Of a DNA stretch of 64,000 nt, positions 13,405-62,034 are shown piece after piece. The stretch is taken from assembly GCA_019750095.1 (NCBI GenBank), contig JAIEOW010000158.1, positions 1 through 64,000 of the forward strand. Reading direction: 5' to 3'. The first letter of the stretch is position 1. Each line of letters starts with the position of its first letter. This stretch comes from Phycisphaerales bacterium (GTDB lineage: Bacteria; Planctomycetota; Phycisphaerae; Phycisphaerales; UBA1924). The translations under genes were made by a program, and so were the position numbers. The notes beneath the pieces are model-generated. The model saw only the letters and a list, made by a program, of their open reading frames with translations. It was not told where the DNA came from and made no database searches.

Positions 13405-13569
13405 AGTTCTCCAGAGAAGCCGACGGGGACACGGCGACTTGGCGGGAGACTATCTGTCTTTGGGCTGGGCAAAAACGTGGAAATCGTTCAAATGAATGTT
13501 TTTCATGGTTTAGACGGATGTTTGGGTCGGATTTCCCCCAAACGCATTGGCCGTCCGTGGCCATTATAG

Positions 13570-21265: not shown

Positions 21266-21286
21266 TTCGTTGAACGGCATGCCGGT

Positions 21287-22222
21287 TCAGCAGCGAGCGA
21301 ACCAGAGGTTCAGAAAGATGAACAGGTCGGTGGTGGAGATACTGCTGAAGGTGTCCATGTTCGCTGCCGGGCTGCTGGAGAACCACGCGTTGAGATAATC
21401 AAAGAGGTCGAACAGATCAACCCCGTCAAGCCCGTTGAAGTCGGCCTGGCACGGCGGGAGGGTGATCAGGGTGCAGGTGGTTGAGCGCCGAAAGCGGTGC
21501 ATGCCCGACCCGCCGACGAAGCCCGCGCCGGGAAAGTTCACGACCGCTTCAAATCGCAGCTCGACGGTGTGCTCGTTGCCCGCGTCAAGGTCGTTGGCTG
21601 GGATGACGACCGACGTCGCGGTATTGGGGAGCGAAGCGGAGTAAACCGTGAAACCGCTGGCATCTCGCACCTCAAGGCTGGTGGTTGCCAGCGTGGCTCC
21701 CGCGGGTAGGGTTGCGCTGTTGAAGGTGAGCGTGATGGGGTCATAGGAACGCACGCCCGCGGTGATCGTGGTGTAGGTTCCTGAAAGGAACCGCGGCACG
21801 AGCGTGGGCCAGAGCAGCGTGGTCGGGCCGCTGAAGTTCGCGCTGCGGTTGCCCAGCGTGCCGCCGGCGACACTGAACTGGTAGTTGCCGGCTGGAAAGT
21901 CTGTGCGCACGGCGGACTCGGTAGCATAGGTGCCGCTGACAAACTCGTAGGTCAGCCCTCCGTCGAGGTCGATCAGCTCACGCTGCGGAAACGCCGTGCT
22001 GGCGGTGGGGCGAACAAAGGCCTGGAGTGCGTCGAACTCGTTGTCGGAGGTCAGCTGGCTGAAAAACGCGTAGTTCTGCAGCACAGGCGGCGTGGTGGCG
22101 CCGGTCTGTTGATACCGGATCTGATAGCCGAGCTCCACCGTCTGGATGACGCCGAGCGCCGAGCCATGACAGGCCAGCGCGGCCCCGACAAGAGCGATCC
22201 GCCGACCACAACACATCAGCAT
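21287..22222 (-). CDS. Secreted GC-dockerin protein of unknown function
   Basis: 311 residues from the ATG at 22222 with GGAG seven bases upstream. Signal peptide at residues about 1-23 (RRIALVGAALACHGSALG). The body is beta-rich with no catalytic motif I recognise. The C-terminus keeps the two-repeat dockerin layout: Cys before QADFNG, a first FDYLNAWF unit, then a diverged second unit lacking the usual Asp-rich loop (NMDTFSSISTTDLF) and ending LNLWFARC. The final Cys is kept while Gly is replaced by Arg, which helps define which positions of the tag matter. First in a run of similar minus-strand genes, 186 bases after its upstream neighbour and across a terminator. Confidence 0.78.
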   Translation of the reverse strand: MLMCCGRRIALVGAALACHGSALGVIQTVELGYQIRYQQTGATTPPVLQNYAFFSQLTSDNEFDALQAFVRPTASTAFPQRELIDLDGGLTYEFVSGTYATESAVRTDFPAGNYQFSVAGGTLGNRSANFSGPTTLLWPTLVPRFLSGTYTTITAGVRSYDPITLTFNSATLPAGATLATTSLEVRDASGFTVYSASLPNTATSVVIPANDLDAGNEHTVELRFEAVVNFPGAGFVGGSGMHRFRRSTTCTLITLPPCQADFNGLDGVDLFDLFDYLNAWFSSSPAANMDTFSSISTTDLFIFLNLWFARC

Positions 22223-22321: not shown

Positions 22322-22408
22322 GAGTTGCAACAACGAGCGGGTTTGTGTGAACTTAGAGGAGTTCGCCGTTTGTTTTAGAGGCGATGGCCTCGGGGAGCGA
22401 GCCGAAAT

Positions 22409-23707
22409 TCAGCAGCCGGCGAACCAGGCGTTGAGGAACGAGAAGATGTCCTGAACGGTCACGCCGCCGAGGCCGTCGAAGTCGGAGGTGGGGTTGCCGG
22501 CGAACCAGGCGTTGAGGAACGAGAAGATGTCCTGAACGTTGAGACCGCCGGTGCCGTTGAAGTCGACCGGGCAGGGTACAGAAAGGTTGAGGGTGTAGCT
22601 TCCTCCCCAGGGCTGAGTGCGTGTGACCCAGACAAAGAAGGGGCCCGGGCCGAAGCTTCCCGAGATGCTGGCGGTGGCACCGGGGCCGCCCGCGGTGAAG
22701 GGGGCGGAAGACAAGAAAATGCCGGTAGAGCTTTGCAGATGCATCGTGGCGTTGCCGAGGGCCCAGATGCCGGGTGCCGTCGCGCTGATGTTCACCGTGG
22801 TGTTGACGGGGACGAGGAAGAAATCCTCATCGAGAAGTTTCAGCTCGGTGGGCGTGTTTGCGGCGAGCCTGATGGCGGTCGGGCGGGTGTCGTTGGGTTC
22901 AAGGGCATCGTCGATCGGCAGGCCGTAACGGCTGGAGAGGCCGTCTTTGTCGCCTTGACTCATGTAGCTGAAGTTGCCCATCAGGCTTTGGAAGGCCGCG
23001 AAGGCGGGAGTGGCCTGAATTGTTGGTTGGCCGTTGATGCTGCAGTCGGTTGGTCCGTAGTGCATGATGGACTCGAAGTCATACGGGCCGACCGGTCCTG
23101 CGTCGGGCCAAATCGCGAGGTTGATGAAGCAGGCCTGAGAGGTGTTGGCGAAGTTGACGGTGACGTAGGTGTCCCGATCGGTGCGGTTCTGCTCGTGCCA
23201 ACAGCCGAGGGCGTGCATGATTTCGTGGATGACGGTGTAGCGGAAGTCCCAGTTGAAGAGGTTGATGTTCTGGCGGACGCCGGTGCGACCGATCGACGAA
23301 CTGTTTCCGCCGCTGTTCCGCGCGTAGATGTACGCCGTCTCGGTGGTGCGCGGGACGAACGTCAGGTTGGCAACGGTCTGGAGTTCGTCCATGGCGATCC
23401 GGAAGCGATCACGATTGATCTGTGTCACCTCGGGGTCGAACTCATAGGGAACGATCCCGCCTGGCCAGAGGTTGGGCGTCCACGCGCCGCGATTGCGAAC
23501 GGGGAGCGTAAACTCATTGGCGGTGCATGGCACCCTGGGGGCGGCTTTGACATCCGGCCAGAGCGGGTGCGGGGGATAGTGCGCAGACTCGACCGGTCGG
23601 TGTTCCTCTGAGAGCCCGAAGGCGGGGGACGCGGCCACAGGAAGCAACGCGATCACCGCGAGGCTGGCGAGGGGCGGGTTCATCTGCGAGCGAATGGGCG
23701 TGTGCAT
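22409..23707 (-). CDS. Secreted astacin-type (M12A) metalloprotease with GC-dockerin
   Basis: 432 residues; ATG at 23707 with AGGAGTT six bases before it. Signal peptide near residues 9-31 (ASLAVIALLPVAASPAFG). The zinc site HEIMHALGCWHEQNRTDRD (from residue 161) is the long astacin motif HExxHxxGxxHExxRxDR, and SIMHYG supplies the Met-turn. A pre-peptidase C-terminal-type beta domain (LKLLDEDFFLVPV... region) follows, then two clear dockerin-like repeats ending FLNAWFAGC. Astacins are extracellular zinc endopeptidases; the C-terminal tag suggests cell-surface attachment. It lies 101 bases after the start of the neighbouring reprolysin-like gene's stop region and has its own ribosome site. 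Confidence 0.92.
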   Translation of the reverse strand: MHTPIRSQMNPPLASLAVIALLPVAASPAFGLSEEHRPVESAHYPPHPLWPDVKAAPRVPCTANEFTLPVRNRGAWTPNLWPGGIVPYEFDPEVTQINRDRFRIAMDELQTVANLTFVPRTTETAYIYARNSGGNSSSIGRTGVRQNINLFNWDFRYTVIHEIMHALGCWHEQNRTDRDTYVTVNFANTSQACFINLAIWPDAGPVGPYDFESIMHYGPTDCSINGQPTIQATPAFAAFQSLMGNFSYMSQGDKDGLSSRYGLPIDDALEPNDTRPTAIRLAANTPTELKLLDEDFFLVPVNTTVNISATAPGIWALGNATMHLQSSTGIFLSSAPFTAGGPGATASISGSFGPGPFFVWVTRTQPWGGSYTLNLSVPCPVDFNGTGGLNVQDIFSFLNAWFAGNPTSDFDGLGGVTVQDIFSFLNAWFAGC

Positions 23708-23808
23708 GGTGATAACTCCTGAAAGATGAGGCACTGACAAAGGTGGGCGGCGAGGGAGCAGGCGATGGCAGGACGTGAGATTTGCACCGGGCTCAGTGCC
23801 TGGGCGCC

Positions 23809-26493
23809 CTAGCACCCGGCGAACCAGGCGTTCAGAAAGGAGAAGACGTCCTGTACGGTCAGGCCGCCCATGCCGTCGAAGTCTGCCGACATGGTTCCGG
23901 CGAACCAGGCGTTGAGAAAGTCGAAGATGTCGGTGATGGTCACACCTCCATCGAAGTTGAAATCGCTTGCGCAGCGTGGGGAGCGGGCGATGAGGGAGCC
24001 ATCGAGCACGCGGCGGGTGAGGCCTGTGCCCGCTGGCCCGTCGACGCGAGCGATGATGCCCGAGTTGCCGCCGACTTGGAAGTAGTCGATGCGGATGGGA
24101 TAGGCTCCGGCCCTGAGCCCGACCCTGCCGGTGCGTTCGAGCATGTCGTGCACCCCGTTGTTGTTCACGATCAGCTGGTTGTTCAGGAAGAGCAACGAAC
24201 CATCGCCGGATTCAGTGGAGAAGGTGTAGACGCCGTCGGCGGGGCAGATGAACCAGCCCGTGAAGGATGCGCCGAAGTCGAACGGGCGGATGGCGAGCGT
24301 CGTCAGCCCGAGAGGTGCGGGGAAATCCACCGCGGTGATGGGTGCCGAGAAGAACGGCGTGAGCGCGGCGAACGACGGGACCACCGACGGAGCGTCCGGC
24401 GGGACGAAGTACTCGGCGGTGAGGTTCGTGAACGCGGACGCAGGGATGACCTGCTTGGCGATGCCACTGTCATCGGGACCTTGAAAGCGAACGATGAGCC
24501 CGCCGGAGCTAAAGACAACACCGTGCGCGTACTCGACCCGGAATGCATAGTTGCCGGGAGCCAGCGTGATCGTGCCGGAGCGTTCGGTCATGCTCTGCGG
24601 GAAGTCGTTGAACACGACGGGGATCGAGTCGATAAAGAGCGCCGAGCCGGAACTGGACTCGGTGAAGAAGGTCCAGGTGCCCCCAACAGGAATGCTGAGC
24701 GTGCCGGTGAAGCGGGCGGCGACGGAGGTACTGCGTCCGGAGTTGACGACGTTGGTAGACGTGGCGGGGTAGTTGATGTCGGCGACCTGGGCTGAGGCGT
24801 ACGGCGTGAGCGGGCCGAAATCTGGAAGCTGCCCACTGCCTGCCCCGCCGAGGCGATAGACATCGAGGTTGAGCCCCGGGGCGGTGTTGCCGGGGGGCGT
24901 GGAGGGCAGGATTGAAACTACCACTTCCACGCGAACGGTCCCGTTGGTGCTGCGGCCGCTTGTGTCCCGGGCGAGGTACAAAAAGGAGTCGGTGCCAGAG
25001 AATGTGGGGCCGGGGGTGTACCGCAGCAGATCGCGCCCGCCGGGGCCAGCACCGACGACGCGGCTGATGGTGCCCCCGTTGGTGGTGGTGGCGGAGAAGT
25101 TGCCGATCGTCAGGGCTTCGCAGTTGGGGTCGAAGTCGTTGGCGAGCACGTCAATGTCAATTGGTGCGTTCTGAATCGTGAGAACGATATCTGTAACTGC
25201 ACCGGGACTGGCCGGGGTTGAGGCACCGTTCACGGTGTCCAAACACGGAGACGTGTTCGCGGCGTCGAGCATGACAGGGATGCTGCCGGAGCTGAATCGG
25301 ACGAAGTTGCTTGTGCATCCGTTGATGGTTGCGCACATGATGGAGCAATCGAAGTCGCCGTTGCAGTGATTGGCCCCGAAGTTGTGCCCGATCTCGTGCG
25401 CGATGAGTGCGGCGCGCAACTGAAAGTTGGAACTGAAGCGGGCAACGGAGACGGCATAGCCCCCGTCGAGGTCGCAGATCCCATTGCCATCGAATGCGAG
25501 TCCGATGATGCCACCCTGAACGGTGACGCCAGACATGAGGTGAGCCAGATCGCGGGCGACGCCCGCCTGCGTGGTGCGCCACTCGGTGGCAAACGTGTCG
25601 AGACGGTCGCCAATGGTGGGGGCGTTTGTGTAGACGACGTTCGTGGCCCGGACGATTTGTGTTGGGATGACAATCGTCGTGCGGATGTCGCGCTCGTAGA
25701 TCAGGCGCACGGCGTTCATGAGACTCTCCACGTCGCTGACGACGGCCGCGGAGGATGAGCCAAGACTCGTGAAGTACTCGAAGTCCGAATCGACGGCGAT
25801 CTCGCAACGGCGCAGGCACTGGGGCCCGCGAGGTGCGAAGGATCCGGCACGAGCGACACGCTCGGCGAGCACGGACCTTTCGATCGCCCCGCCGCATTGA
25901 GTGTCGGTGGGCTGCACGGCGTCAGCGGGGTAGACGATGTGGGTGTCGGCGTCGGCGGCTGGGTCAATCTCCCGAGCGGGCTGCACGTACCACGCGGACC
26001 CGTCTTCGAGCAGGATCATCGCACGAACGCCCGGGGCGCTTGACGATTCAACGAACGAGATGGCCGCGCTGACGGCTCGGAGTTCGCCGCCACCAGCCCC
26101 AGCCGGCAAGGCCGCCGTGGAGCGATACGTTGCGGATTCGGGAGGCGCAACGTCCACCAGGCCGGTCTCGCGATGCTCGATGAGCCGGAAGTTCCCGGTG
26201 CGGATTGGGTGCGGCGTGAGCACGAACGTGATCGGCGCGCCTTCGATGGGCACGGTGAGCTGCAAGGTGGCGCGAGCGTCTTGGACATCGATCGACACCG
26301 TTCTGACGCGGCCCGCATCGAGTGAACCGGCAAGATCCAGCGAGCGAGTCGCCACAGGCGTGGAGCGGACCGGGTTGGTCTTGACCGCACCGGGCTCGGC
26401 CCACCAGCCGCGATCGACGGCAAGGGCGGACGCCGTGAAACAAAGAACGTTCGTGGCGATCAACGCGACCGTGCGGCGGGATGGGAACAGCAT
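23809..26493 (-). CDS. Secreted reprolysin-like (M12B) metalloprotease with PA14 and GC-dockerin
   Basis: 894 residues; ATG at 26493 preceded by GAGG. Signal peptide to about residue 26 (VALIATNVLCFTASALA). The zinc site HEIGHNFGANH is at about 366-376, followed by CSIMCAT as Met-turn, the ADAM/reprolysin pattern. Next come a cadherin-like segment with IDVLANDFDPNCEAL, two PA14-like modules (each with FTESSSGSALFID or FSTESGDGSLLFL and a GxYxxRxxY strand), and two dockerin-like repeats ending FLNAWFAGC. PA14 modules often bind carbohydrate. Together with the astacin next door it suggests surface-bound protein or glycoprotein breakdown. Confidence 0.92.
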   Translation of the reverse strand: MLFPSRRTVALIATNVLCFTASALAVDRGWWAEPGAVKTNPVRSTPVATRSLDLAGSLDAGRVRTVSIDVQDARATLQLTVPIEGAPITFVLTPHPIRTGNFRLIEHRETGLVDVAPPESATYRSTAALPAGAGGGELRAVSAAISFVESSSAPGVRAMILLEDGSAWYVQPAREIDPAADADTHIVYPADAVQPTDTQCGGAIERSVLAERVARAGSFAPRGPQCLRRCEIAVDSDFEYFTSLGSSSAAVVSDVESLMNAVRLIYERDIRTTIVIPTQIVRATNVVYTNAPTIGDRLDTFATEWRTTQAGVARDLAHLMSGVTVQGGIIGLAFDGNGICDLDGGYAVSVARFSSNFQLRAALIAHEIGHNFGANHCNGDFDCSIMCATINGCTSNFVRFSSGSIPVMLDAANTSPCLDTVNGASTPASPGAVTDIVLTIQNAPIDIDVLANDFDPNCEALTIGNFSATTTNGGTISRVVGAGPGGRDLLRYTPGPTFSGTDSFLYLARDTSGRSTNGTVRVEVVVSILPSTPPGNTAPGLNLDVYRLGGAGSGQLPDFGPLTPYASAQVADINYPATSTNVVNSGRSTSVAARFTGTLSIPVGGTWTFFTESSSGSALFIDSIPVVFNDFPQSMTERSGTITLAPGNYAFRVEYAHGVVFSSGGLIVRFQGPDDSGIAKQVIPASAFTNLTAEYFVPPDAPSVVPSFAALTPFFSAPITAVDFPAPLGLTTLAIRPFDFGASFTGWFICPADGVYTFSTESGDGSLLFLNNQLIVNNNGVHDMLERTGRVGLRAGAYPIRIDYFQVGGNSGIIARVDGPAGTGLTRRVLDGSLIARSPRCASDFNFDGGVTITDIFDFLNAWFAGTMSADFDGMGGLTVQDVFSFLNAWFAGC

Positions 26494-26655
26494 TCGGAAA
26501 CCTCTGGGAGAGCCCACTTTTTGACCTCTATCGCGGCACCCGAAGAGCGCCTGAGACCGCGATCCCGAAGGGAAAAGCCCGCCCGATTCCATGAGAATCG
26601 AACTTGGCGGGGTCGATGTGTTGTCGCGATGCTGAATGCGAAGATCAGTCGTCCA

Positions 26656-27780
26656 TCAGCACCCAGCGAACCAGGCGTTGAGATAGTCGAAGAGGTCCTC
26701 GACGGTCAGGCCGCCCACGCCGTTGAAGTCCGCCGACGTGTTTCCTGCGAACCACGCGTTGAGATAGTCGAAGATGTCGTTGAGGGTCACGCCTTCGACG
26801 CCGTTGAAGTCTGCGCGGCACGGCGGCAAGGCGGGGCTCGCGAAGCGGAAGCCGGTGGCGCTGTCCTCGCTCAGCGGAGGGGCCGGGAACGAATCCTCCG
26901 GAAGAATCCCGAACGTGGGTACCGCAAAGAACGTCCCACCGGCAATGAACCTGTTGTTCAGTCCGCCGAGCGTGCTGGTGTCCTGGAGCCACTCCTGGAC
27001 GTTGCCATTCATATCGAACGCACCATAGAAGCTGCTGTTCAGGCAAGAACCGACGGTCGTGACGTTCCCGTTCTGCCCGTTCCAGTCGGCACCTCTCTGC
27101 CAGTTGACGGTCGTGGCGCTCGGGTTGGCGATATCGCCGGTCGCTGTCGCCGTCCCGACGATCGGAAAGTCGTTGCTCTGCGTGGCGAACTTCCAGAAGT
27201 TGTCGGTGTCGCCGCCCTGACTGGCGGGTTGGTGGAGGGCGGCCTTGTACCACTCGTTCCGAGTAGGAAGGAAGACCTGGTTGGGATTCGAGAGGTCGCG
27301 CGTGATCGCGGTCACGGTGTTGCCGTTCAGGGTATAGGCGCCGCTCTCGGTGCTGCCCGAGCCCTGCCCGTTGGTCAGCCAGTTGGCCATGCGGAGCGCG
27401 TCGAGAGAGCTCACGAAGTTCACGGGCTTGTTGCCCATGTTGGGCCTGACGGTGTACGTGAACGAGCCAGTCGTGCCCGAGCGGGTAATGCCGCCGCGAG
27501 GGTCTGTGCCCATATTGGCGTTGAAGAGTCCCCTGGGATCGCTCGCAGCGACGGCGTTCAAGAACGCGGCGTACTGCGCGTTGGTGACCTCAAAGGCGCC
27601 GATGCGATACTCGTACGCGACCGCGCCGAGCGGGCCGGAAGTCGGGTTGCCCGGGTCGCCCGCGTTGCCGGCGTTGCCGACGGTGCGAAACTCGATAGCG
27701 ACCTGCGCCGAGGCGACAGATGCACCCAAGCCGGTGAAGGCCGCGCATGCGACCACGCTGAAGATGGACTTCGAAACCAT
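26656..27780 (-). CDS. Secreted formylglycine-enzyme-like (SUMF1) protein with GC-dockerin
   Basis: 374 residues; ATG at 27780 with GGAGAAC six bases upstream. Signal peptide to about residue 25 (SVVACAAFTGLGASVASAQ). The body follows the FGE-sulfatase fold: YEYRIGAFEVTNAQYAAFLN near the start, PTRNEWYKAA in the middle, and GAFDMNGNVQEW with an IAGGTFFA strand near the end. Two dockerin-like repeats follow, ending YLNAWFAGC. True formylglycine-generating enzymes oxidise a Cys in sulfatases; members with anchoring tags probably have other roles, so I do not assign the reaction. Downstream partner genes are the metalloproteases. Confidence 0.87.
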   Translation of the reverse strand: MVSKSIFSVVACAAFTGLGASVASAQVAIEFRTVGNAGNAGDPGNPTSGPLGAVAYEYRIGAFEVTNAQYAAFLNAVAASDPRGLFNANMGTDPRGGITRSGTTGSFTYTVRPNMGNKPVNFVSSLDALRMANWLTNGQGSGSTESGAYTLNGNTVTAITRDLSNPNQVFLPTRNEWYKAALHQPASQGGDTDNFWKFATQSNDFPIVGTATATGDIANPSATTVNWQRGADWNGQNGNVTTVGSCLNSSFYGAFDMNGNVQEWLQDTSTLGGLNNRFIAGGTFFAVPTFGILPEDSFPAPPLSEDSATGFRFASPALPPCRADFNGVEGVTLNDIFDYLNAWFAGNTSADFNGVGGLTVEDLFDYLNAWFAGC

Positions 27781-28089
27781 GATGTTCTCCTTGCGCCTAT
27801 GACCGCAACGGGTCACGGCGAGACTGTGATGTCATCTGGAAGACGGTGACTTCGGACTGCTACAGATGTCGGCAGTGCGAGCGCGCTTTGCGATTTCTCT
27901 GGAGAAGTCGCAAGTCTGTGCGCGACGCAGCAATTCAAGCGTCAAAAGTCCTGTCTCGGCAATAGTGGACGATTTTCGCGTGTGCCGATAAACACAAACG
28001 GCCCCGGAGCGATCCGGGGCCGTCGTGTTGGAGATGGTGATAGAAGAACCGACACCGAGACGCATCGCGCCAAAGAGGCGATCAGCGAC
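27781..28089. other. Intergenic region with terminator
   Basis: About 310 bases between two minus-strand genes. It contains the terminator at 27998-28023 for the upstream gene and, closer to 27780, the leader of the formylglycine-like gene. I see no further gene, no repeat and no convincing -35/-10 pair. Confidence 0.6.
27998..28023 (-). terminator. Terminator of the lamin-tail gene
   Basis: A perfect 11-bp stem (ACGGCCCCGGA and TCCGGGGCCGT) with a GCGA tetraloop; AACAC/GTGTT extend it outward. On the minus strand TTTGTGTTTAT follows. It lies 66 bases past the stop of the gene at 28090-30795. Confidence 0.82.
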
Positions 28090-30795
28090 TCAGCAGCCAG
28101 CGAACCAAGCATTCAGGAAGGCGAAGATGTCCTGGACGTTCACGCCGTCGCCATCGAGGTCGGCGGAGGGACTGGAGGCGAACCACGCGTTGAGGTATTG
28201 GAAGATGTCCTGAACGTTGACGCCGCCCACGCCGTCGAAGTTGGCCTTGCAGCAGGTCGTCGGATTGCCCACGGGGCCGCAGGCGGTGCCGGTGCCCTGG
28301 AACGCGCCTGAGCACGCGGCGGCGGTGACGATGGAGCAAGTGGTGCCAACGCAGCACGCGCCGGTGGCGGGGGGGAGCACGCAGGTGTTCGCGGGGCTAG
28401 CGCTGTTACGCGGGAAGTTCAAGGGAAGGACGAGGGTGATGTCGAGCGCCGACTGGTTGCGATCGAGGCACCCGTTGTCGCCGCGGAGGCCGACGAGGGT
28501 GTTGTCGCCGTTACTCGCCGCGGCGAGCCCTTCGAAGCAGGAAGACGCCGAGCCATAACCGACGAGATCAACCACAGACGCCGCGGCACAGTTGGAGGCG
28601 ATCGGGGTGGTGCTGTTGACGAGGGCGATCTTGCCGAACTGGTTATCCATGCCGAAGGGCGGAGTCGCGGTGAAGTCCGGCGTGGGAATCAGACCGCCGG
28701 TGGTGCCCGAGGGGCCGACCTGGATCAGGCGATACTGACCGGCACCGATGGTGCCGGAGAGGTTGACCTGCTTGGAGCCGTTGAAGGTGCTCAGCGCCGG
28801 GCCGTCGGCATATTGCAGCGACCAGCCGGTGAGATCGATGGGGCTGGCGGTGCGGTTGAAGATCTCGACGAAGTCAGCAACGAACGCGGCGGCCGCGGCG
28901 TTGCCGTTGGAGTTCTGACCGGCAAAGAACTGGCTGATGACCACCGGCGCGCTCGACGGGGTGCAGTTGCCAACGCCGACCGAGAGCTGCGAGACGTCAT
29001 TCTGGCCCTGCACATCGGTGACGGTGATGGGGATGGTCTTGAAGCCAGCCGAGACATTGGCGGGGACGTTGTAGGTGAATGCGTAGGTGTTGCCGCCGGT
29101 GTTGTTCAGGGTCTGAGTCGCCGACCCGCCGAGGGTGCTGAGATTGGCGCGGACCTGGATGCCGGTGGAGCCGGTGCCGGGGGTGACGTTCACCGTGAAG
29201 GTGATCGGCGAGCCGGGGCAGAGCAGCGCGACATCGCTGGAGGCGTAGCCAGCGAGGAACCCGCCCGCCGAGCGGTTGCGGGGACTCGGCGTCCCGGCGA
29301 TGAAGTCATTGAAGTTCTGGTTGGTGTCGGTGTTGCCCGAGCCGGTGCGGATCGCTGCGGTGTTGTTGGCGAGTGTCGGCGCGGGAGCGGCACCCTCGAA
29401 GCAGATGGTATTGAGCCCGTAGCCAGCGAGGTCTTCGACGTTGGCGTCGTTGCAGTTGGTGCCGATGAGGGCCTGCGAGCGGACGAGCGCGACGCGGCCG
29501 CCCTGGTTGCCGATGCCGCCCACTCCCGGGAGTGTGGAGAAGTCGGGCGTGGGGATGTCTGAGCCGGTGTTGCCCGCGTCCTTGAAACGGACGAGGATGC
29601 GCTGGCCGGGCTTGATCACGCCATTGAGCAGCACGCGATCATTCGGATCGTTGAATCCGTCGAACGCGATCGGTCCGGCGTATTGCACGGACCAGCCGTC
29701 GAGATTCACGGTCTGGTTCGAGCGGTTGAACAGTTCGACGTAGTCGGCGTTGAGCGGAGCGATGGGCGGCCCGAGGTTGGACCCGCCGCCGTAGATCTGG
29801 CTGATCACGACCTGCGCCGCGCTCGACCCGCCGCAGGCGACGGCGGTGACGCTGGTCGATGCGTTGCCGGTGCGGAGCTGGGCATCGGTCACGGTGACGG
29901 GGATGGACTTGGGCCCGGCGGACTGCGCGCCGACCGTGGCAGTCGCGGTGAAGATGTTGTCCCCGGCGAGGGCGTCGGGGGCGACGCCGTTGTCCAGCAG
30001 CGTGATCGTCGATCCGCCGAGGGAGGCGAGATTCGCGTTCACAGCGAGGCCCGTCGAGTCGGGGTTGAGCCCCTGGGTCACGGATGCGGAGATGACAAAC
30101 TGGCCACCGCTGGTGCAAACCGCCGCGGGCTCGGCGGCGGGATTCACGATCGGGTTCGTGGGCTGGGGCGCGATGCCCGAGACCGTGACCAGGTCCAGAC
30201 GCCACCCGCCAGTGGAGCTGGAGGCAAACGTCGCGCCATCCGCGGCGGCGACATACTGCCCGGTGCCGGAGTCCACCACCGCGGTGAGACGGAAGCGAAA
30301 GTTCGGGTTGTTGTTCACGCCGGCGATGGCGGAGAGATCGACCGTCTGGGTGAGTGCCCAGCTATCGCCAAAGGCGTAGCTCAGCACGCCGTTGCTCGGG
30401 AGCCCGGTGGTGACGAAGTTCGTGCCGTCGATGGAGTAGGAGAACTGGGTGAATCGGCTGGCCGAGTTGGAGTGGCGCTGGTCCCACGTGACGGTGACGG
30501 TGTTGAACCCAAGGGTGGAGACGTTGAACTGCGCCCCCTGCGTGCCGCTGGGAGACGCGGCGGAGAACTGCTGCAGGCGCATGGACTGGTTGTTGACGAC
30601 GGCGTCGTTGGGGCTGCCGCCATCAAAGAGTTGGGTGAGCCCGCCGAGGACGCTGGAGGTCCCGATGCCGTTGTCAGAGTTCAGAGAAGGGGTGACGCCG
30701 TTGAAGGACCATCGCGCGATCTGCGATTGGCCGAGTGACGCGCCGGAGCACGCGAGGACGACGACGCACGAGGTGAGGGTGTGCCAGAAACGCAT
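28090..30795 (-). CDS. Secreted lamin-tail-domain protein with GC-dockerin
   Basis: 901 residues; ATG at 30795 with AAGGAGAT seven bases upstream. Signal peptide to about residue 22 (SCVVVLACSGASLGQ). After an N-terminal beta domain, two lamin-tail domains (LTD) are recognisable from QVVISQIYGGGS/YVELFNRSNQTVNL and PVVISQFFAGQNS/FVEIFNRTASPIDL, separated by Ig-like segments. A Cys-rich stretch (TGACCVGTTCSIV) precedes two dockerin-like repeats that end FLNAWFAGC. Bacterial LTD proteins are extracellular and often accompany nucleases or phosphatases, but no catalytic domain is visible here, so a structural or adhesive role is likelier. Confidence 0.88.
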   Translation of the reverse strand: MRFWHTLTSCVVVLACSGASLGQSQIARWSFNGVTPSLNSDNGIGTSSVLGGLTQLFDGGSPNDAVVNNQSMRLQQFSAASPSGTQGAQFNVSTLGFNTVTVTWDQRHSNSASRFTQFSYSIDGTNFVTTGLPSNGVLSYAFGDSWALTQTVDLSAIAGVNNNPNFRFRLTAVVDSGTGQYVAAADGATFASSSTGGWRLDLVTVSGIAPQPTNPIVNPAAEPAAVCTSGGQFVISASVTQGLNPDSTGLAVNANLASLGGSTITLLDNGVAPDALAGDNIFTATATVGAQSAGPKSIPVTVTDAQLRTGNASTSVTAVACGGSSAAQVVISQIYGGGSNLGPPIAPLNADYVELFNRSNQTVNLDGWSVQYAGPIAFDGFNDPNDRVLLNGVIKPGQRILVRFKDAGNTGSDIPTPDFSTLPGVGGIGNQGGRVALVRSQALIGTNCNDANVEDLAGYGLNTICFEGAAPAPTLANNTAAIRTGSGNTDTNQNFNDFIAGTPSPRNRSAGGFLAGYASSDVALLCPGSPITFTVNVTPGTGSTGIQVRANLSTLGGSATQTLNNTGGNTYAFTYNVPANVSAGFKTIPITVTDVQGQNDVSQLSVGVGNCTPSSAPVVISQFFAGQNSNGNAAAAAFVADFVEIFNRTASPIDLTGWSLQYADGPALSTFNGSKQVNLSGTIGAGQYRLIQVGPSGTTGGLIPTPDFTATPPFGMDNQFGKIALVNSTTPIASNCAAASVVDLVGYGSASSCFEGLAAASNGDNTLVGLRGDNGCLDRNQSALDITLVLPLNFPRNSASPANTCVLPPATGACCVGTTCSIVTAAACSGAFQGTGTACGPVGNPTTCCKANFDGVGGVNVQDIFQYLNAWFASSPSADLDGDGVNVQDIFAFLNAWFAGC

Positions 30796-34753: not shown

Positions 34754-37446
34754 CCCCGCTGCTGTGTGGTCAGTTGGCGATCGCCCAGGTCGTCGAAGTT
34801 CGACGTCTCGACAGGTTCGGCAACTTTATCTCCAGCACGCAGCACCCTGCGAACACGCCAATCTCGATCAACGCGTTCGGATTCCCGGATGGCCAATGGC
34901 TGCACATCTACAACACCGGCGACCCGAACAATCCCGCAAACGGTATCGGAGCCGTGACCATGACCGGCGTGCCCAATGGTGCGCTGAACATCGTGGTTGC
35001 AGGTGCGGCGCAGTCCATTCCGATCGACTCAGGAATCGTTGGGCTGGAAGAAGCATGCTTCAACTTCGGTGGACTTCAGTATGCGCAAGGCATCTTCCCG
35101 GGACAGGTGCGGTTCTTTGGCCGAGTCTCTGGTAGCACCACCGGCGCCATCACCTGTGGCACCGTCGAACGGGTTGAGGCCAACTTCGATATTGGCGGCA
35201 TCCATGCGACAGTGGGCATGCCCTATACGAACACCGTGACGCAGCGACAGGCTTTTCTTGCGATCAATCGCGTGCTTGCAGGCCGAGCGATCACCGGCGA
35301 GATTCGAGCGGACTCTGGCGACATCTTTCTCGTCGCCGTACGTGGCGCGGGATTGACTGACGGCAACCCGCTCAACGACGGCATCCTCGCGGACATCCTC
35401 GCGCCCGAAGGCCAGATCACGCAGATCTATACAATGGGGCAGATCGGTTCAGAGTCCGGCTCCACCATCACGCGCCGCAACATTGTGGCGAAGCAAGGGC
35501 TGACGTTTCTGCGTGCCGTGGACGTTGCGAGCGTGACCAACGTGGACACGGCCCCCGCGGGCGGGACTGCGTTGAACGTGCCGTTTCGCGCGGTGATTTC
35601 GACGGGCGATGCCAGCACCGTCGGGCTTGGCGACGAGCAAAAGCCAAGAGATCGAGCGACCTGGAAGCTGGAGACACAGGGAGACTTCGATGGCGACATC
35701 ACGCTGCAGAACCTGACGGCAAGTCGATACCTGTCTCAGGCCGGTTCATCGCGCGACTGGGGCATCCGAATCGGCGGTTCGATGAAGGGTCGCGTGACGA
35801 TCCGAGATGGCGTGCTGATCGCGAACATCCGGGCAGCGCACTTTGAGCAGCCGATCGAGATTGGAACGCTGCTCAAGGGCGGGATCATCGCGCGGACAGG
35901 ATCGGTGCCGAGCATCAGCGTCGGCTTCAGTCCATTACCCAGCGCGCAACAGAACGGGTTTGTGGGCTCGATCTGTTCGCCCGGGCTGGACCCGGACGAT
36001 CCAACGACAGGCGTGACATGTGATGGCTCGTTCAGCGAGGCCGATTCGGTGATTCGCGTCGCGGGTTCGATCGGAGAGCTTCGCATTTCAAGCATGAACA
36101 TGGGCATGAGCAAACAGTTTTGGCCTCGCATCGAGGCCCCGGCCATCGGCTCGCTCACGATCGGGGTCGATGCGTCGGGGTCACAAGTCGGCTTCATGCG
36201 CAATGGCGTTGTGTGGTCAGGACTCCTTGAAACTGGTCCATCTGGAAACGATCCGACGAACGACTACTCCAGCATCGGCACGATCAACATTTCGTGCATC
36301 AGCAACGATTGCGAGTTGTTTGTGAAGGACTTCACCACGTTCGAGATTCGACGCGATCTCTCGGGCCGTGTCTTCATGCCTCGCATTGAGACCTCGGCCA
36401 CACTCCGCGTCGGCGAGTCGATGACGATATCCGGCGACTGCGCTCCGGAAATCGCATCGCGAAACTTCACGCTCGCTCCGAACGTGCTCGAAGTCTCTCC
36501 AAGGCGTGGTGCGGCCTCGGGCATCAACCGGATCACGATCGCCGAACCGCTGGGGCTGCGTGGGCAGATCATCATCAATGCCGACAACACCCAGACGACA
36601 AGTCCGTGGAGTGGCGAGGTCGTCATGCCTGTGCCCGATCCGCTGACCGGATTGAACGTGGAAAGGACGTTTGTGACGACCGCGGCACCGCCGTTCCGGG
36701 CACCGCACTATGCAATCTCTTCTGCGCTGCTTGGTGGCGGCGCGATCGGAGAAGTGCCCTTCCACATCTACGAGGCCGATTGTGTGCCCCCACATCGCGT
36801 GCGGTTGACGGATCCGCCAACACTCTCGGAGACAGAGAACTTCGTCCCGCCGAGCGCCTTTGAAAGCGGACAAACATGCAATGCTGCCGTTCCAGTGAAG
36901 CTTCGCTTTTATGGGCCGGTCGCGCTGAATCCCGAGAATCCGTTCGTCATCAGGGCATCACCGCCTGCCGGAAACCTGGTCTGTGGACAGCCGTTTACCG
37001 ATATTCTGCAATCGATCTTTCTTGTGCGTCCCCCCGGCTCGCACCCCGAGGTTGATGCTCGGACAATCGGCTTCTCACGCTCACTCGCGTGCTCAACGAT
37101 CGGCGATGGCAAGTTCGCGATTGGCGAGTTCGAGTTCAATCCGGATTTCACCACGGTACTGAGCGTGCCCCGGGAGAGCTCAACCGGGGTTCCCGCCATC
37201 TTCTTCGACGTGTGCGAAACGGGCGTTGAGGATCGAACGTTTTACTTCCGCGTGAGTTCCGCAGTCAACAACTGCATCGATCCGGGCAACTTCGACGGCA
37301 TGAACGGGATCAATGTCGCCGACATCTTCGACTTCCTGAACGCTTGGTTTGCCAGCTTGCCCTCGGCGGACATTGATGGTAGCGGGACCGTCGCCGTGGC
37401 GGACATCTTCGCCTTCCTCAACGAGTGGTTCGACGGCTGCGCCTGA
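34717..37446 (+). CDS. Large secreted protein with terminal dockerin-like repeats
   Basis: 909 residues; GTG start at 34717 with GAGGAGG six bases upstream, inside the last codons of the preceding gene, so translation of the two is probably coupled. Signal peptide to about residue 24 (LALLTPLLCGQLAIAQ). The long middle part is made of short beta repeats that could form a beta-helix; residues I can name as catalytic are absent. The C-terminus has two dockerin-like repeats (NCIDPGNFDG onward) but ends FDGCA, one Ala past the usual final Cys. A strong terminator follows. Confidence 0.85.
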   Translation: MSTLRSYVLALLTPLLCGQLAIAQVVEVRRLDRFGNFISSTQHPANTPISINAFGFPDGQWLHIYNTGDPNNPANGIGAVTMTGVPNGALNIVVAGAAQSIPIDSGIVGLEEACFNFGGLQYAQGIFPGQVRFFGRVSGSTTGAITCGTVERVEANFDIGGIHATVGMPYTNTVTQRQAFLAINRVLAGRAITGEIRADSGDIFLVAVRGAGLTDGNPLNDGILADILAPEGQITQIYTMGQIGSESGSTITRRNIVAKQGLTFLRAVDVASVTNVDTAPAGGTALNVPFRAVISTGDASTVGLGDEQKPRDRATWKLETQGDFDGDITLQNLTASRYLSQAGSSRDWGIRIGGSMKGRVTIRDGVLIANIRAAHFEQPIEIGTLLKGGIIARTGSVPSISVGFSPLPSAQQNGFVGSICSPGLDPDDPTTGVTCDGSFSEADSVIRVAGSIGELRISSMNMGMSKQFWPRIEAPAIGSLTIGVDASGSQVGFMRNGVVWSGLLETGPSGNDPTNDYSSIGTINISCISNDCELFVKDFTTFEIRRDLSGRVFMPRIETSATLRVGESMTISGDCAPEIASRNFTLAPNVLEVSPRRGAASGINRITIAEPLGLRGQIIINADNTQTTSPWSGEVVMPVPDPLTGLNVERTFVTTAAPPFRAPHYAISSALLGGGAIGEVPFHIYEADCVPPHRVRLTDPPTLSETENFVPPSAFESGQTCNAAVPVKLRFYGPVALNPENPFVIRASPPAGNLVCGQPFTDILQSIFLVRPPGSHPEVDARTIGFSRSLACSTIGDGKFAIGEFEFNPDFTTVLSVPRESSTGVPAIFFDVCETGVEDRTFYFRVSSAVNNCIDPGNFDGMNGINVADIFDFLNAWFASLPSADIDGSGTVAVADIFAFLNEWFDGCA

Positions 37447-39211: not shown

Positions 39212-40996
39212 ATGCGGACCTCTTCATCCTCCATCACTCTTCCCGACGCCGTTGACGTCATCATCGCCGGTGCCGGTCACAACGGCTTGGTCTGTGCCGC
39301 CATCCTCGCTGGGCAGGGGAAAAAGGTCCTCGTCTGCGAGGCGAGCGACGCCGTCGGCGGAGCGTGTCGCACCGAGCGTCCCTTCGCCAAAGCCCCCGGT
39401 GTCGGGTGTTCCACCGGTGCGTATCTCCTGGGACCGATGCCGCCGGAAGTGCTCGATGCCACCGGACTCCGCAGCAAGGTGCGGCTGATCCCCCGCCGAC
39501 CCCATGGGTTTTTCTTGCTGCCTCAATCCGACATTCAATCCGAGGCCCGGGCGCAAGCCCGGGCACCTTTGGCGTCGGGCACGGCCGTGCGCGCGCACAC
39601 GCCGGACATGCCCGGGCTTGCGCCCGCGCCTCTGATGAGACCAGTTGCCTTCGGCATCCCCGGCGGCCTCACGCATCTTGCGCCGCAGGATCGTGCTGCG
39701 CTCGATGATCTCGACGTCGTGCTCGCCGCGATCCGCGATGACCTCGCCCCGCTCTGGCTGCAAGACGCCATTCCGCTTGAAGAGTCCATCGACTTCATCC
39801 GCAACACGCCCGCCCCTTCGCGCGTTGGCGGCACCATCCGCGACCTCTATCGCCTGCTCGCCCTCGGCGCTTCGGGCGACGCCTATCCCTCGGGCGCACT
39901 GCGGGATTTTCTGGAGTGCTTCTCGTTTGCGTCAGAGTTCGTCAAAGCCGTCGTCGCCACCGACGGCTTCGTCGGCTCCTCCCGCGGCTACGCCGATCCG
40001 GGCTCGGGAATGAACTTTCTGCTGCACAACATGCTCCGTCTGCCCGCGGGCGATGGACCGACGACCGCCCAGCCGCTGGGCAGTTGGCAGCTCGTCGAAG
40101 GCGGCATGGGCGCGATCACGCGCGGGCTTGCTGAGTGTGTGCAAGACGCGGGCGGGCTGATCCTCACCGGTGCCCGCGTGACCGAAGCCCATCCCGGCCC
40201 GTCGAGCATGCGAGCCGTGGAGATCGAGGGCGTCGGCTCGGTCAGAGCCCGCGCCCTGGTCATCGCCACCGACCCGCGCAGCGCGCTCGACATGCTCTCC
40301 GGCGAGGCCCGCATGCGACTGGAGCAGGTCATCGCCCCGATCGGCGATCATCTGGGCACATCGCTCAAGATCAACCTTGCGCTCAAACGCCTTCCCAGCG
40401 TCGTCGGCACGCGCGAGCTGCAAGCCATCGCCCCGAGCGCTCACCCGCTTGCCGGCACCGTGCACATCCTGCCGACGGTCGACACCATGGCCCGCCTGGA
40501 GCGCGCCCGCCGTCGCGCAACGATCGACGGCCACGTGCCCGACGCGTTTGACGCGATGATCGACGTCTACACCCACACCGCCGTGGATCCGTCGCTGATG
40601 GATGCCCAGGGTCGCCACGCGATGTCGCTGTTTGTGCAGTGGGTGCCGAGCACCTTGTCCGCGCTCGCCGCGGAGGAGTTTGCCCATTCACTTATTGATG
40701 GCCCGGTGGCTCAGGTCCTGCCCGATCTGCCGGAACTGATCGAAGACATGCTGGTCCTGGCCCCGCGTGGGATCGAAGGCCGCTTCGGGATCCGCGGCGG
40801 GCACATCCATCATGTGGATAACGGGTGGACGATGAACCGCCGCCTGCCCGCGCGCTCACCTATTCAGGGTATTTACCTTGCCGGAGCCGGGGCACACCCT
40901 GGCGGATCGGTGGTCGGGGCGGCGGGACTGATCGCCGCGAAGCTGATTCTGAGCGACTTTCCCGCATTTGCATCCGCCGACACGCGTCCTGCGTAA
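39212..40996 (+). CDS. Phytoene-desaturase-like FAD oxidoreductase with a translated palindromic repeat
   Basis: 594 residues. The N-terminus has the FAD-binding dinucleotide fold VIIAGAGHNGLVCAAILA and the following VGGACRTE, as in phytoene desaturase/PYROXD2-type enzymes. The central part and the C-terminal GIYLAGAGAHPGGSVVGAAG complete the family pattern, so it probably oxidises a polyisoprenoid or carotenoid-like substrate. Residues about 108-143 are encoded by a 107-bp palindromic element (39534-39640) that also occurs at 51187-51293 outside genes; the frame is open through it. The inserted segment is Ala/Arg/Pro-rich and unlike the flanks. Whether the enzyme is still active is unknown. 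Confidence 0.88.
   Translation: MRTSSSSITLPDAVDVIIAGAGHNGLVCAAILAGQGKKVLVCEASDAVGGACRTERPFAKAPGVGCSTGAYLLGPMPPEVLDATGLRSKVRLIPRRPHGFFLLPQSDIQSEARAQARAPLASGTAVRAHTPDMPGLAPAPLMRPVAFGIPGGLTHLAPQDRAALDDLDVVLAAIRDDLAPLWLQDAIPLEESIDFIRNTPAPSRVGGTIRDLYRLLALGASGDAYPSGALRDFLECFSFASEFVKAVVATDGFVGSSRGYADPGSGMNFLLHNMLRLPAGDGPTTAQPLGSWQLVEGGMGAITRGLAECVQDAGGLILTGARVTEAHPGPSSMRAVEIEGVGSVRARALVIATDPRSALDMLSGEARMRLEQVIAPIGDHLGTSLKINLALKRLPSVVGTRELQAIAPSAHPLAGTVHILPTVDTMARLERARRRATIDGHVPDAFDAMIDVYTHTAVDPSLMDAQGRHAMSLFVQWVPSTLSALAAEEFAHSLIDGPVAQVLPDLPELIEDMLVLAPRGIEGRFGIRGGHIHHVDNGWTMNRRLPARSPIQGIYLAGAGAHPGGSVVGAAGLIAAKLILSDFPAFASADTRPA
39534..39640. repeat. 107-bp palindromic element, copy A (inside a gene)
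   Basis: The left arm starts TTCAATCCGAGGCCCGGGCG and the right arm ends GCCTCTGATGAGA; they are near-perfect reverse complements over about 30 bases, with a variable 40-base centre. Copy B at 51187-51293 is the same length and alignable without gaps. It is read in frame in the oxidoreductase gene and contributes about 36 residues. Confidence 0.85.
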
Positions 40997-47866: not shown

Positions 47867-47937
47867 TTCGAGATGACGCGTTATGGGGTGACGCGGTGAA
47901 CCGGTGAAGCTGTGATGGGGCGATTGGTGGCAGCCGT

Positions 47938-48156
47938 CTTCGCACGGAGTGCGCACGATCGTTGCCGGTGGTGCCGCGAGCGCAGCGAGCAAGCCACCGG
48001 AGAGGGCAGGTCATTCTCGCCCGTCTGAGGGCGAACTGGTTCGATTCGCCGATGCATTCGTCCGCCCTCAGACGGGCGGAAGGCCTGCGGAGGGCATCTT
48101 ACCGGCGGCTGGCTGCGCTGCGCCGCCGGCAACAATCGTGCGCACTCCGTGCGAAG
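47938..48156. repeat. 219-bp nested palindromic repeat, copy 1
   Basis: The outer arms (47938-47968 and 48126-48156, starting CTTCGCACGGAGTGCGCACG) match as reverse complements at 30 of 31 positions. Inside lie CGCCCGTCTGAGGGCG at 48018-48033 and its reverse complement at 48063-48078. Parts of the same modules recur at 61868-62034. It fills nearly all of the gap between the permease and the gene at 48178. Confidence 0.85.
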
Positions 48157-48177
48157 AGGGGTGGCCGCGTCACCGCG

Positions 48178-51186: not shown

Positions 51187-51293
51187 TTCAATCCGAGGCC
51201 CGGGCGCGAGCCCGGGCACCGTGGGCGCACGATGGGCGTTCGACGCACCCGATGTCCGTAGTGCCAGGGCTTGCGCCCAAGCCTCGGATTGAG
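51187..51293. repeat. 107-bp palindromic element, copy B (intergenic)
   Basis: The left arm begins TTCAATCCGAGGCCCGGGCG and the right arm ends GCCTCGGATTGAG, near-perfect reverse complements. It has the same length and end sequences as copy A at 39534-39640, with a different centre. It starts 21 bases upstream of the lipoprotein ATG and its last base touches the stop codon of the decarboxylase. Confidence 0.85.
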
Positions 51294-52760
<1,467 letters not shown>

Positions 52761-52787
52761 GCTCGGAGCGTACGGCTCCGTGCGGGC

Positions 52788-54341
52788 TCAGCAGCCATTG
52801 AACCATGCGGACAGGAAGGTGAAGATGTCCGTCGGATCGATCAATCCGTTGCGGTCGATGTCGGTGGTGGGAAACTGGGCGAACCAGTGGTTGAGGAAGT
52901 CGAAGATGTCCTCGACCGAGAGCACGCCGTCGCGATCAAAGTCGGGGCTGCAAGGCAGCGTGGCAATCGCGGCGAGCACGCCCCGCATGGCATTGACGCG
53001 GCCATAGCCGAAGACGGGATCGACGCCCGGCGCGCCCAGATCGTCCGAGGTGCCAAGAAGAATGTTCCGCACCTGTTGGGCGGACATCGCCGGGTTGATT
53101 CCCCAGATGAGTGCCGCGACACCGGCGGCCATGGGCGTCGACATCGACGTGCCCGATTGGTAGGAATAGCCGTTGAGTCCGCCGAGGTTGTCGTCGCACG
53201 TTGTCAGAATGTTGTCGGCGGGGGCAACGATGTCGAGCTCAACACCTGTTGTCGCCCCGGCCCAGCCCGCGTCGGTTTGAGACGAGCCGCCAACGGCGAT
53301 GACTTTTTCCCAGCGGGCCGGGAAGCCGATTGCGTTTCCGGGGGTGTTGCCGACGCTGCCAAACAGAAGGACATTGCTGTTGGACAGATAGGCAACCGCG
53401 GTGGCCATCGGCCCGTTTTCCGTGGACGAGCCCCAACTGATGCTCATGGAGCAGATCTGGGCACCGTTATCGACGGCCCAGGTGAGTCCGTTGGCGCACG
53501 TGGATTGTGCTCCGAACTGAATCGTTGCCAGCGTCTTGACCGGCATGATGCGGATGTTGGGTCCCACGCCCGAGCCCCCGGTGGCGTTGTTCCAGCGCGA
53601 GCCGGCGATGCCGGCGCAGTAGGTGCCGTGAGAAACGTTGGCGTTGTCATCGGTTGCGTTGGGATCAACGCTGGTGAAGTTTCGACCCGGGACCATCACG
53701 CCCGCGAAGTCGGGATGGCTCTGACTCACGCCGGTATCGATGATCGCAATCGTGACGGGAGAGAGCGGCGTGACGATTTCCCACGCGCCCACGGCTTCGA
53801 TGTCGGCGCCGAGGCTTCCGGCTGTGCCGTCGATGACTTGACCGGTGTTTCGAAGGTGCCACTGCTGGGCAAAGAGCGGATCGTTCACAACCGTGCCCGT
53901 GGCGTCGCCGCTCGGGTCGAGCTCGACGTGATCGAAGAGGTCGCTCATCGCCGAGAGTTCGGCGGCGAACGCGTTCACGTCGGTCCCAGCGGGCACAAAG
54001 ATCGTGGCGAATCGATCCATCCCAAGTTCCGCAGCGAGTGCGGCGTTGCGCGGGGGCGGATCAAAGGTGGGCACGATTCCTGAAGCGTTCCACTTGTTGA
54101 GCACGGACGTCCATGACGAGGATGTCGAGGAGTGCTTCGCGGCGAGTCGCTTCAAGACGTCTACAGAAGTGCAGCGCACGATCACGCGATCGGTCATGAA
54201 GCCGTTACGAGCGATCGGAACAGTGGCAGAGGTCGGTGTGACCACCTGACCCGAGGAACTCGCGTGCGAGAACCCGGTACACCCCACCGCTACGCCTGCG
54301 GTGATATGGAGGAGCGCCGCAAGGGCGCAGGACATCATCAT
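52788..54341 (-). CDS. Secreted subtilisin-like protease (S8) with GC-dockerin
   Basis: 517 residues from the first ATG of an ATG-ATG-ATG run at 54335-54341. A hydrophobic signal (SCALAALLHITAGVAVGC) contains a possible lipobox-like Cys. An inhibitor-type propeptide region precedes the catalytic domain, whose triad is Asp near 202 (IIDTGVSQSHPD), His near 238 (SHGTYCAGI) and Ser near 399 (GTSMSTPMAAG). Two dockerin-like repeats end the protein (CSPDFDRDG to FLSAWFNGC). Extracellular serine protease, probably retained at the surface by the tag. First gene of a possible minus-strand set reaching to 48801. Confidence 0.92.
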   Translation of the reverse strand: MMMSCALAALLHITAGVAVGCTGFSHASSSGQVVTPTSATVPIARNGFMTDRVIVRCTSVDVLKRLAAKHSSTSSSWTSVLNKWNASGIVPTFDPPPRNAALAAELGMDRFATIFVPAGTDVNAFAAELSAMSDLFDHVELDPSGDATGTVVNDPLFAQQWHLRNTGQVIDGTAGSLGADIEAVGAWEIVTPLSPVTIAIIDTGVSQSHPDFAGVMVPGRNFTSVDPNATDDNANVSHGTYCAGIAGSRWNNATGGSGVGPNIRIMPVKTLATIQFGAQSTCANGLTWAVDNGAQICSMSISWGSSTENGPMATAVAYLSNSNVLLFGSVGNTPGNAIGFPARWEKVIAVGGSSQTDAGWAGATTGVELDIVAPADNILTTCDDNLGGLNGYSYQSGTSMSTPMAAGVAALIWGINPAMSAQQVRNILLGTSDDLGAPGVDPVFGYGRVNAMRGVLAAIATLPCSPDFDRDGVLSVEDIFDFLNHWFAQFPTTDIDRNGLIDPTDIFTFLSAWFNGC

Positions 54342-61867: not shown

Positions 61868-62034
61868 CGCCCGTCTGTGGGCGGACCGGGTCGCTCCGAA
61901 GGCGATCGACGTCCGCCCTCAGACGGGCGGAAGAAGAAGCCGGGTGAACAAAAGTACGATCTGCCGCTGACCGGTGGCTTGCTCGCTTTGCTCGCCGCGC
62001 CACCGGCAACCACTCGTGCGCACTGCCGTGCGAA
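61868..62034. repeat. Nested palindromic repeat, copy 2 (truncated)
   Basis: CGCCCGTCTGTGGGCG at 61868-61883 and CGCCCTCAGACGGGCG at 61914-61929 are the inner modules of the repeat at 47938-48156. The region 61971-62034, starting CCGGTGGCTTGCTCGC and ending GCGCACTGCCGTGCGAA, is the reverse complement of that repeat's left outer arm and its extension. The other outer arm is missing. The remaining bases to 62126 hold nothing I recognise. Confidence 0.8.

Follow-up and report, generated by a model that had tools for sequence, protein, structure and literature searches.

An inverted pair of REP sequences located in frame within an oxidoreductase gene of a Phycisphaerales bacterium

REPINs and RAYTs were described by Bertels and Rainey (2011; PMC3116915). 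Di Nocera et al. (2013; PMC3733652) report that REPs of the GTAG and CGTC types, single or as dimers, are present in the open reading frames (ORFs) of many proteins and species, that they are most numerous within ORFs in O. terrae (Verrucomicrobia, PVC) and R. conorii, and that REP families exist in Planctomycetes, including R. baltica. The authors already propose that REPs within ORFs are tolerated in linkers or loops. In planctomycetes, class 3 TnpA-Y1 proteins are associated with structures that have a CnGA foot (PMC6006769), and the classic case of in-frame insertion is provided by the Rickettsia palindromic elements (RPEs; see the review PMC10969869). As for REP-RAYT systems in the Phycisphaerae, no paper was found in our partial coverage of the literature.

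The element described here is encoded in the genome of a Phycisphaerales bacterium (referred to as G000), a draft assembly of 4.19 Mb in 202 contigs. The window, i.e., the whole stretch of DNA that was analysed, is 64,000 nucleotides long and contains the following features.

39212..40996, + strand: FAD-dependent oxidoreductase gene (Amino_oxidase / CrtI-CrtO-like), 594 aa, in which the element makes up residues 108-143
39525..39533, + strand: TCAATCCGA, the REP head repeated directly upstream of the element, codons L-P-Q-S-D, read directly
39535..39639, no strand assigned: REPIN in the oxidoreductase gene, an inverted REP pair, 105 bp arm to arm, in frame
39535..39566, + strand: left REP arm, identical to the genome consensus TCAATCCGAG-GCCCGGGC-GCAA-GCCCGGGC-AC; reads (I)QSEARAQARA
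39545..39564, + strand: left REP stem of 8 bp with a GCAA loop, read directly; its pairs covary over 121 arms
39567..39607, no strand assigned: spacer between the two REPs, which differs from copy to copy (33 REPINs listed)
39608..39639, - strand: right REP arm, inverted, with 6 mismatches to the consensus; MPGLAPAPLM on the gene strand
51188..51292, no strand assigned: the other REPIN of the window, located between genes, with the gene calls on its two sides 2 bp and 11 bp away

The initial annotation had placed a palindromic repeat at 39534-39640, residues 108-143 of the oxidoreductase, and had pointed to an intergenic copy of the same length and layout. Both observations hold, and the two REPINs of the window each measure 105 bp arm to arm. 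The repeat matches far exceed chance; the self inverted repeat of the in-gene element has E=2e-16, and other copies in the genome have E=5e-15 and 1e-13. The REP unit consists of the consensus given above plus a weakly conserved tail, and its layout is of the REPIN type, namely a CnGA foot followed by an 8-bp covarying stem with a GCAA or GCGA loop. The foot is CCGA or CAGA (ATC[C/A]GAG-stem) in G000 and CAGA in the sister species, G001. Over the 121 arms, 95.7% of the stem pair cells are paired, versus 90.4 +- 0.5% when the partners are dealt out randomly, and C-G/T-A/G-T exchanges occur at stem positions 3 and 4. The stem is kept through pairing, not through sequence, as is typical of REPs and REPINs.

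The interior of the element displays no such conservation among the 33 REPINs listed, and the 20 bp upstream of the arms show no consensus that would indicate a MITE-like target-site signal. The suggestion that 107 bp plus one duplicated base would give exactly 36 codons could not be upheld; no target duplication is demonstrable, and the boundaries of the element are uncertain because the outer 3-4 nucleotides of the right head depart from the consensus. The copy of TCAATCCGA at 39525..39533 is possibly a target-like or tandem head. The same head is doubled in tandem directly 5' of some other elements (locus L079 at about 2542-2568, L063 and L110), and such tandem heads are possibly a mark of target choice or of tandem insertion.

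The initial annotation had made its reading depend on the element being present elsewhere in the genome, and this is the case. A degenerate pattern for the arm has 121 matches in the whole genome, and the reversed control pattern has 0. Of the 82 sites sampled from these matches (the loci fetched), 42 are inverted pairs, which measure 86-206 bp, and the other 40 have a single arm; the pairs have their heads outward, which is the arrangement that defines a REPIN. Most of the sites (67 of the 82) are intergenic, another 10 overlap the end of a gene and five are inside ORFs and in frame. This is the picture of a REP, i.e., a dispersed, mainly intergenic, many-copy short GC-rich hairpin. The coding share of the window is 88%, and since only five of the 82 sites are in genes despite a coding density of 0.88, the copies are strongly depleted from genes. 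These five copies were recognised by their open frame, and so, frame-breaking insertions would escape the census and the statement that all in-gene copies are in frame is partly true by construction. For the same reason, odds of (1/3)^7 that the frame is kept were calculated but do not count as evidence here.

Some sites at or near gene ends display other patterns. REPs overlap the 3' ends of genes at L113:2106-2215, L059:2504-2622, L186:1996-2027 and L088:1795-1898, where the final codons and the stop appear to come from the REP. The gene for an Ada-like O6-methylguanine methyltransferase (contig C161, L067:2472-2514) has a REP in its first codons (MFATPSEARAQARAP...). The true start of this gene may be downstream of the REP, and with the start uncertain it was left out of the in-gene count. 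A REPIN at C183:54502-54594 had a codon score that suggested an in-gene position; it is in fact intergenic, with a lipoprotein-like gene on one side and a HIT-like gene on the other. Sites on contigs C113, C182, C143 and C192 had one coding flank only or an overlapping frame and were judged to be intergenic, the C113 site being between a chorismate synthase gene and a HAD gene.

The oxidoreductase matches Pfam family PF01593 (E=9e-12), and it matches the CrtO-like model NF045689 with E=2.5e-26, yet far below the cut-off of that model. As the initial annotation stated, the frame stays open through the element and about 36 residues would be added; the 594-aa ORF has coding-type codon usage on both sides of the element in the same frame (scores +22.8 and +41.1). 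The FAD-binding and C-terminal motifs that are conserved in the family are intact in a comparison with 20 homologues. Against the orthologue in G002 (UBA4658, same genus), dN/dS is 0.15 for the N-terminal part and 0.28 for the C-terminal part, values that cover the whole divergence and not just the time after insertion.

The segment is absent from all 20 homologues; it forms an extra block that follows a strand with LLP at its end and precedes one that starts with RPVAFG. In 19 of the 20 homologues, which have 26-43% identity, a tight beta-hairpin turn of 3-5 residues is present at this position. In the closest orthologue, from G002 (70% identity), this turn is longer by 13-15 residues of unrelated sequence; relative to G002, the net gain amounts to no more than 21 codons. 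Therefore, of the expectation that alignment would reveal a clean insertion, the absence of the peptide from homologues was borne out and the cleanness was not; judging from the alignment, the REPIN may have been inserted in a tight turn or have taken the place of a linker. The G002 residues do not resemble a relic of the REP (971 of 1000 shuffles score as high), and the idea that the linkers of G002 and G001 are decayed REPs was dropped, their similarity not being above that of shuffles. In an AlphaFold model, strands are predicted at residues 99-103 and 143-146, with pLDDT <50 at 123-139. A scan of GTDB contigs for homologues returned only UBA4658 and one unrelated match, and one structure search by sequence returned only distant flavoenzymes.

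The oxidoreductase is not the only gene with such a segment. In G000, an ABC transporter has an in-frame REP directly before the H-loop that reads SEARAQARAP; in RsmH (gene rsmH) the REP reads VPGLAPGPLIA, and in a membrane protein VPGLAPAPRIE. The fifth case, a chorismate-binding enzyme in which the REP reads IRGPGASPGT, is less clear, with a gappy alignment around the site. Alignments indicate that homologues of RsmH and of the ABC transporter from outside the genus do not have the segment. At the ABC transporter, membrane-protein and oxidoreductase sites, genus-mates have other residues and variable lengths, and so, the REPs seem to be placed where loops already vary. The sister species G001 has two further in-frame copies, both of which read NRGPGASPGT; one is in a protein that we call TolC-like from a reading of its sequence, not from a family match, and the other is in a 716-aa protein that has no Pfam match. 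Thus, in-frame insertion has occurred in unrelated protein genes, five in G000 and two in G001, and no insertion site is shared between the species compared.

A likely mobiliser is encoded in the same genome. There are eight Y1_Tnp matches, and one of them, a 157-aa RAYT-like ORF at C169:1938-2408, lies between near-identical 104-bp REPINs at 1795-1898 and 2424-2527, at distances of about 40 bp on the upstream side and 16 bp on the downstream side. Such a position between copies of the repeat would be expected of a cognate RAYT gene. The protein has NHVH and WT motifs, and it has relatives in G001 and G002 at 47-48% identity. In the tyrosine motif the C169 copy ends in YVLNQ, one residue short of Y----Q, and the relatives have YVLHEQ or YVLNQQ. 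Among the relatives scanned, only the G000 copy is flanked by this REP. From this linkage, the C169 transposase is likely to be the enzyme that moves the REPINs.

Other Y1 transposase genes of G000 (C201:46019-47086, C171:44413 and C196:9958) are each surrounded by their own distinct palindromes, for example GCAGCCCTTCGGGCTGCG around the C201 pair, which suggests that several REP families with cognate transposases are present in one genome. The window itself has a second palindromic family at the intergenic positions 47931-48163 and 61971-62010, with the core GCCGGTGGC...GCTCGC...GCCACCGGC, and a similar palindrome is downstream of the IS200-like gene at C196:9958-10296. Homologues of the C169 transposase are also present in open frames of 1271-1529 aa in other genomes (G031:C23, G032:C7, G004:C2 and G035:C60; loci L237, L238, L242 and L253). 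The length of these frames may be due to chance in GC-rich DNA, or they may represent more transposase domains in host proteins.

Compared with the systems listed at the outset, the element shares with REPINs and RAYTs (PMC3116915) the inverted REP doublets, the high copy number, the mainly intergenic position and the presence of these repeats on both sides of a Y1 transposase gene. However, its foot is CnGA and not a GTAG-type tetranucleotide, its spacer is unconserved among copies and some of the copies are in genes. It resembles the intragenic GTAG and CGTC REPs (PMC3733652) by being within ORFs, and differs from those super-families in its foot (CCGA or CAGA) and in its host group. The foot agrees with that of the class 3 TnpA-Y1 proteins (PMC6006769), which are likewise planctomycete and have NHVH and W[TA] motifs, a CnGA foot before the hairpin and high-copy repeats. 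The C169 protein falls one residue short of the Y----Q that its relatives keep. Classical MITEs differ from the element, which has neither a demonstrable target-site duplication nor a conserved interior. The initial annotation had drawn a parallel to the RPEs and knew of no planctomycete example. The second statement has to be corrected, since REPs in planctomycetes and in-frame REPs in genes, including those of Verrucomicrobia (PVC), were published in 2013 (PMC3733652). In-frame REPs in genes are thus known, if little studied; the present case adds a member to this kind that has a different foot and host group. The parallel itself stands for what the element does, i.e., a palindromic element of about 100 bp is in frame in unrelated proteins. 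It does not extend to membership: the RPEs have another sequence and foot (CGTC in RPE-4/6), a far larger share of copies in genes and a conserved frame and peptide, whereas the element has five of 82 sites in genes, another copy layout and a transposase gene flanked by the repeat.

We consider it very probable that a selfish REPIN is tolerated here as a loop insert in a predicted surface turn, its translation being predicted from the open frame. A Y1 (HUH) REP-associated transposase would spread non-autonomous inverted REP pairs through the genome, and one pair would have inserted in the beta-hairpin turn of a CrtI/CrtO-like FAD oxidoreductase. The gene would have stayed open for two reasons: the net change in length was divisible by three and, by chance, the GC-rich element has no stop in that frame. 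In the predicted product, about 36 residues make up a loop of low complexity, which is presumably tolerated by the fold, and insertions that break genes would be removed by purifying selection. A different view, suggested by the initial annotation, is that the palindrome was built to be readable and spreads as a peptide-coding module, as in Rickettsia. This would fit with the in-frame copies, which are present in seven genes from two species, and with the observation, from direct reading, that the GC-rich consensus arms are free of stops in five of six frames. However, the 42 REPINs are open in 0.51 of their frames versus 0.57 +- 0.02 for their dinucleotide shuffles, i.e., not more often, the majority of copies lie between genes, and those in genes are spread over three frames (SEARAQARAP, VPGLAPGP and IRGPGASPGT), and therefore, there is no conserved peptide. 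The similar peptide read from the other strand of the intergenic copy is given automatically by the inverted-repeat layout. This view is largely refuted, and we regard it as highly improbable.

The host might also make use of the inserts, either as REP-coded Gly/Ala/Pro linkers or as mRNA hairpins that alter activity or expression and are kept by selection. The affected genes include conserved and presumably expressed ones such as rsmH and the ABC transporter gene, and the frames used yield residues that are small and flexible, the Cys-rich and the Arg/Lys-Pro frames being avoided. Yet the use of three of six frames in seven sites is not significant (chance 0.14-0.24), no site is common to the species compared and genus-mates have unrelated residues in the same loops, all of which makes selection for use very improbable. 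That the oxidoreductase is a recent pseudogene is, in our opinion, very unlikely. Long open frames are indeed common at high GC, where stops are few and many ORFs overlap, but the 594 codons are intact, including the family-conserved motifs, the codon usage is of the coding type on both sides and dN/dS against G002 is low, though over the whole divergence. A broader proposal would be that the CnGA-footed REP family repeatedly supplies linkers to conserved proteins (the oxidoreductase, ABC transporter, RsmH, chorismate-binding enzyme and TolC-like protein). We find this unlikely; if true, new protein loops would repeatedly arise from the REP in the Phycisphaerales, and it would be more than a tolerated passenger. 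With a selfish, tolerated REPIN as the preferred explanation, a planctomycete genus and its likely transposase join the short list of bacteria in which REPs enter coding sequence, and the matched congeneric genes with and without the insert (RsmH, ABC transporter and oxidoreductase) make the neutrality of the insert testable.

A separate observation concerns leucyl-tRNA synthetase (LeuRS). The only LeuRS match in the genome (C169:33307-36987, - strand; loci L089 and L262) has a whole REP-associated tyrosine transposase domain in frame in the editing domain, where it is flanked by GRSEGA and TTRPDT. The match to NCBIfam NF047646 has 81.5 bits, which is over the cut-off. No paper on a transposase domain in LeuRS was found, and this case looks more novel than the in-gene REPIN. 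LeuRS proteins that carry the transposase are present in 14 of 400 genomes of the order, in nine genera among the better genomes, all of the same family; G001 and most others are without it. In the four compared (G000, G002, G010 and G014), the insert is at the same site and the HUH motif and the Tyr of the Y..NP motif are kept.

Finally, at the ends of several large genes in the window, repeats are present in pairs with a distance of about 81 bp and code for a C-terminal motif that is dockerin-like (DIFxFLNAWFAG type).

13569-13693, 21286-21410, 22397-22569, 23797-23969, 26644-26816, 28078-28247, 37282-37440 and 52787-52948: dockerin-like paired repeats
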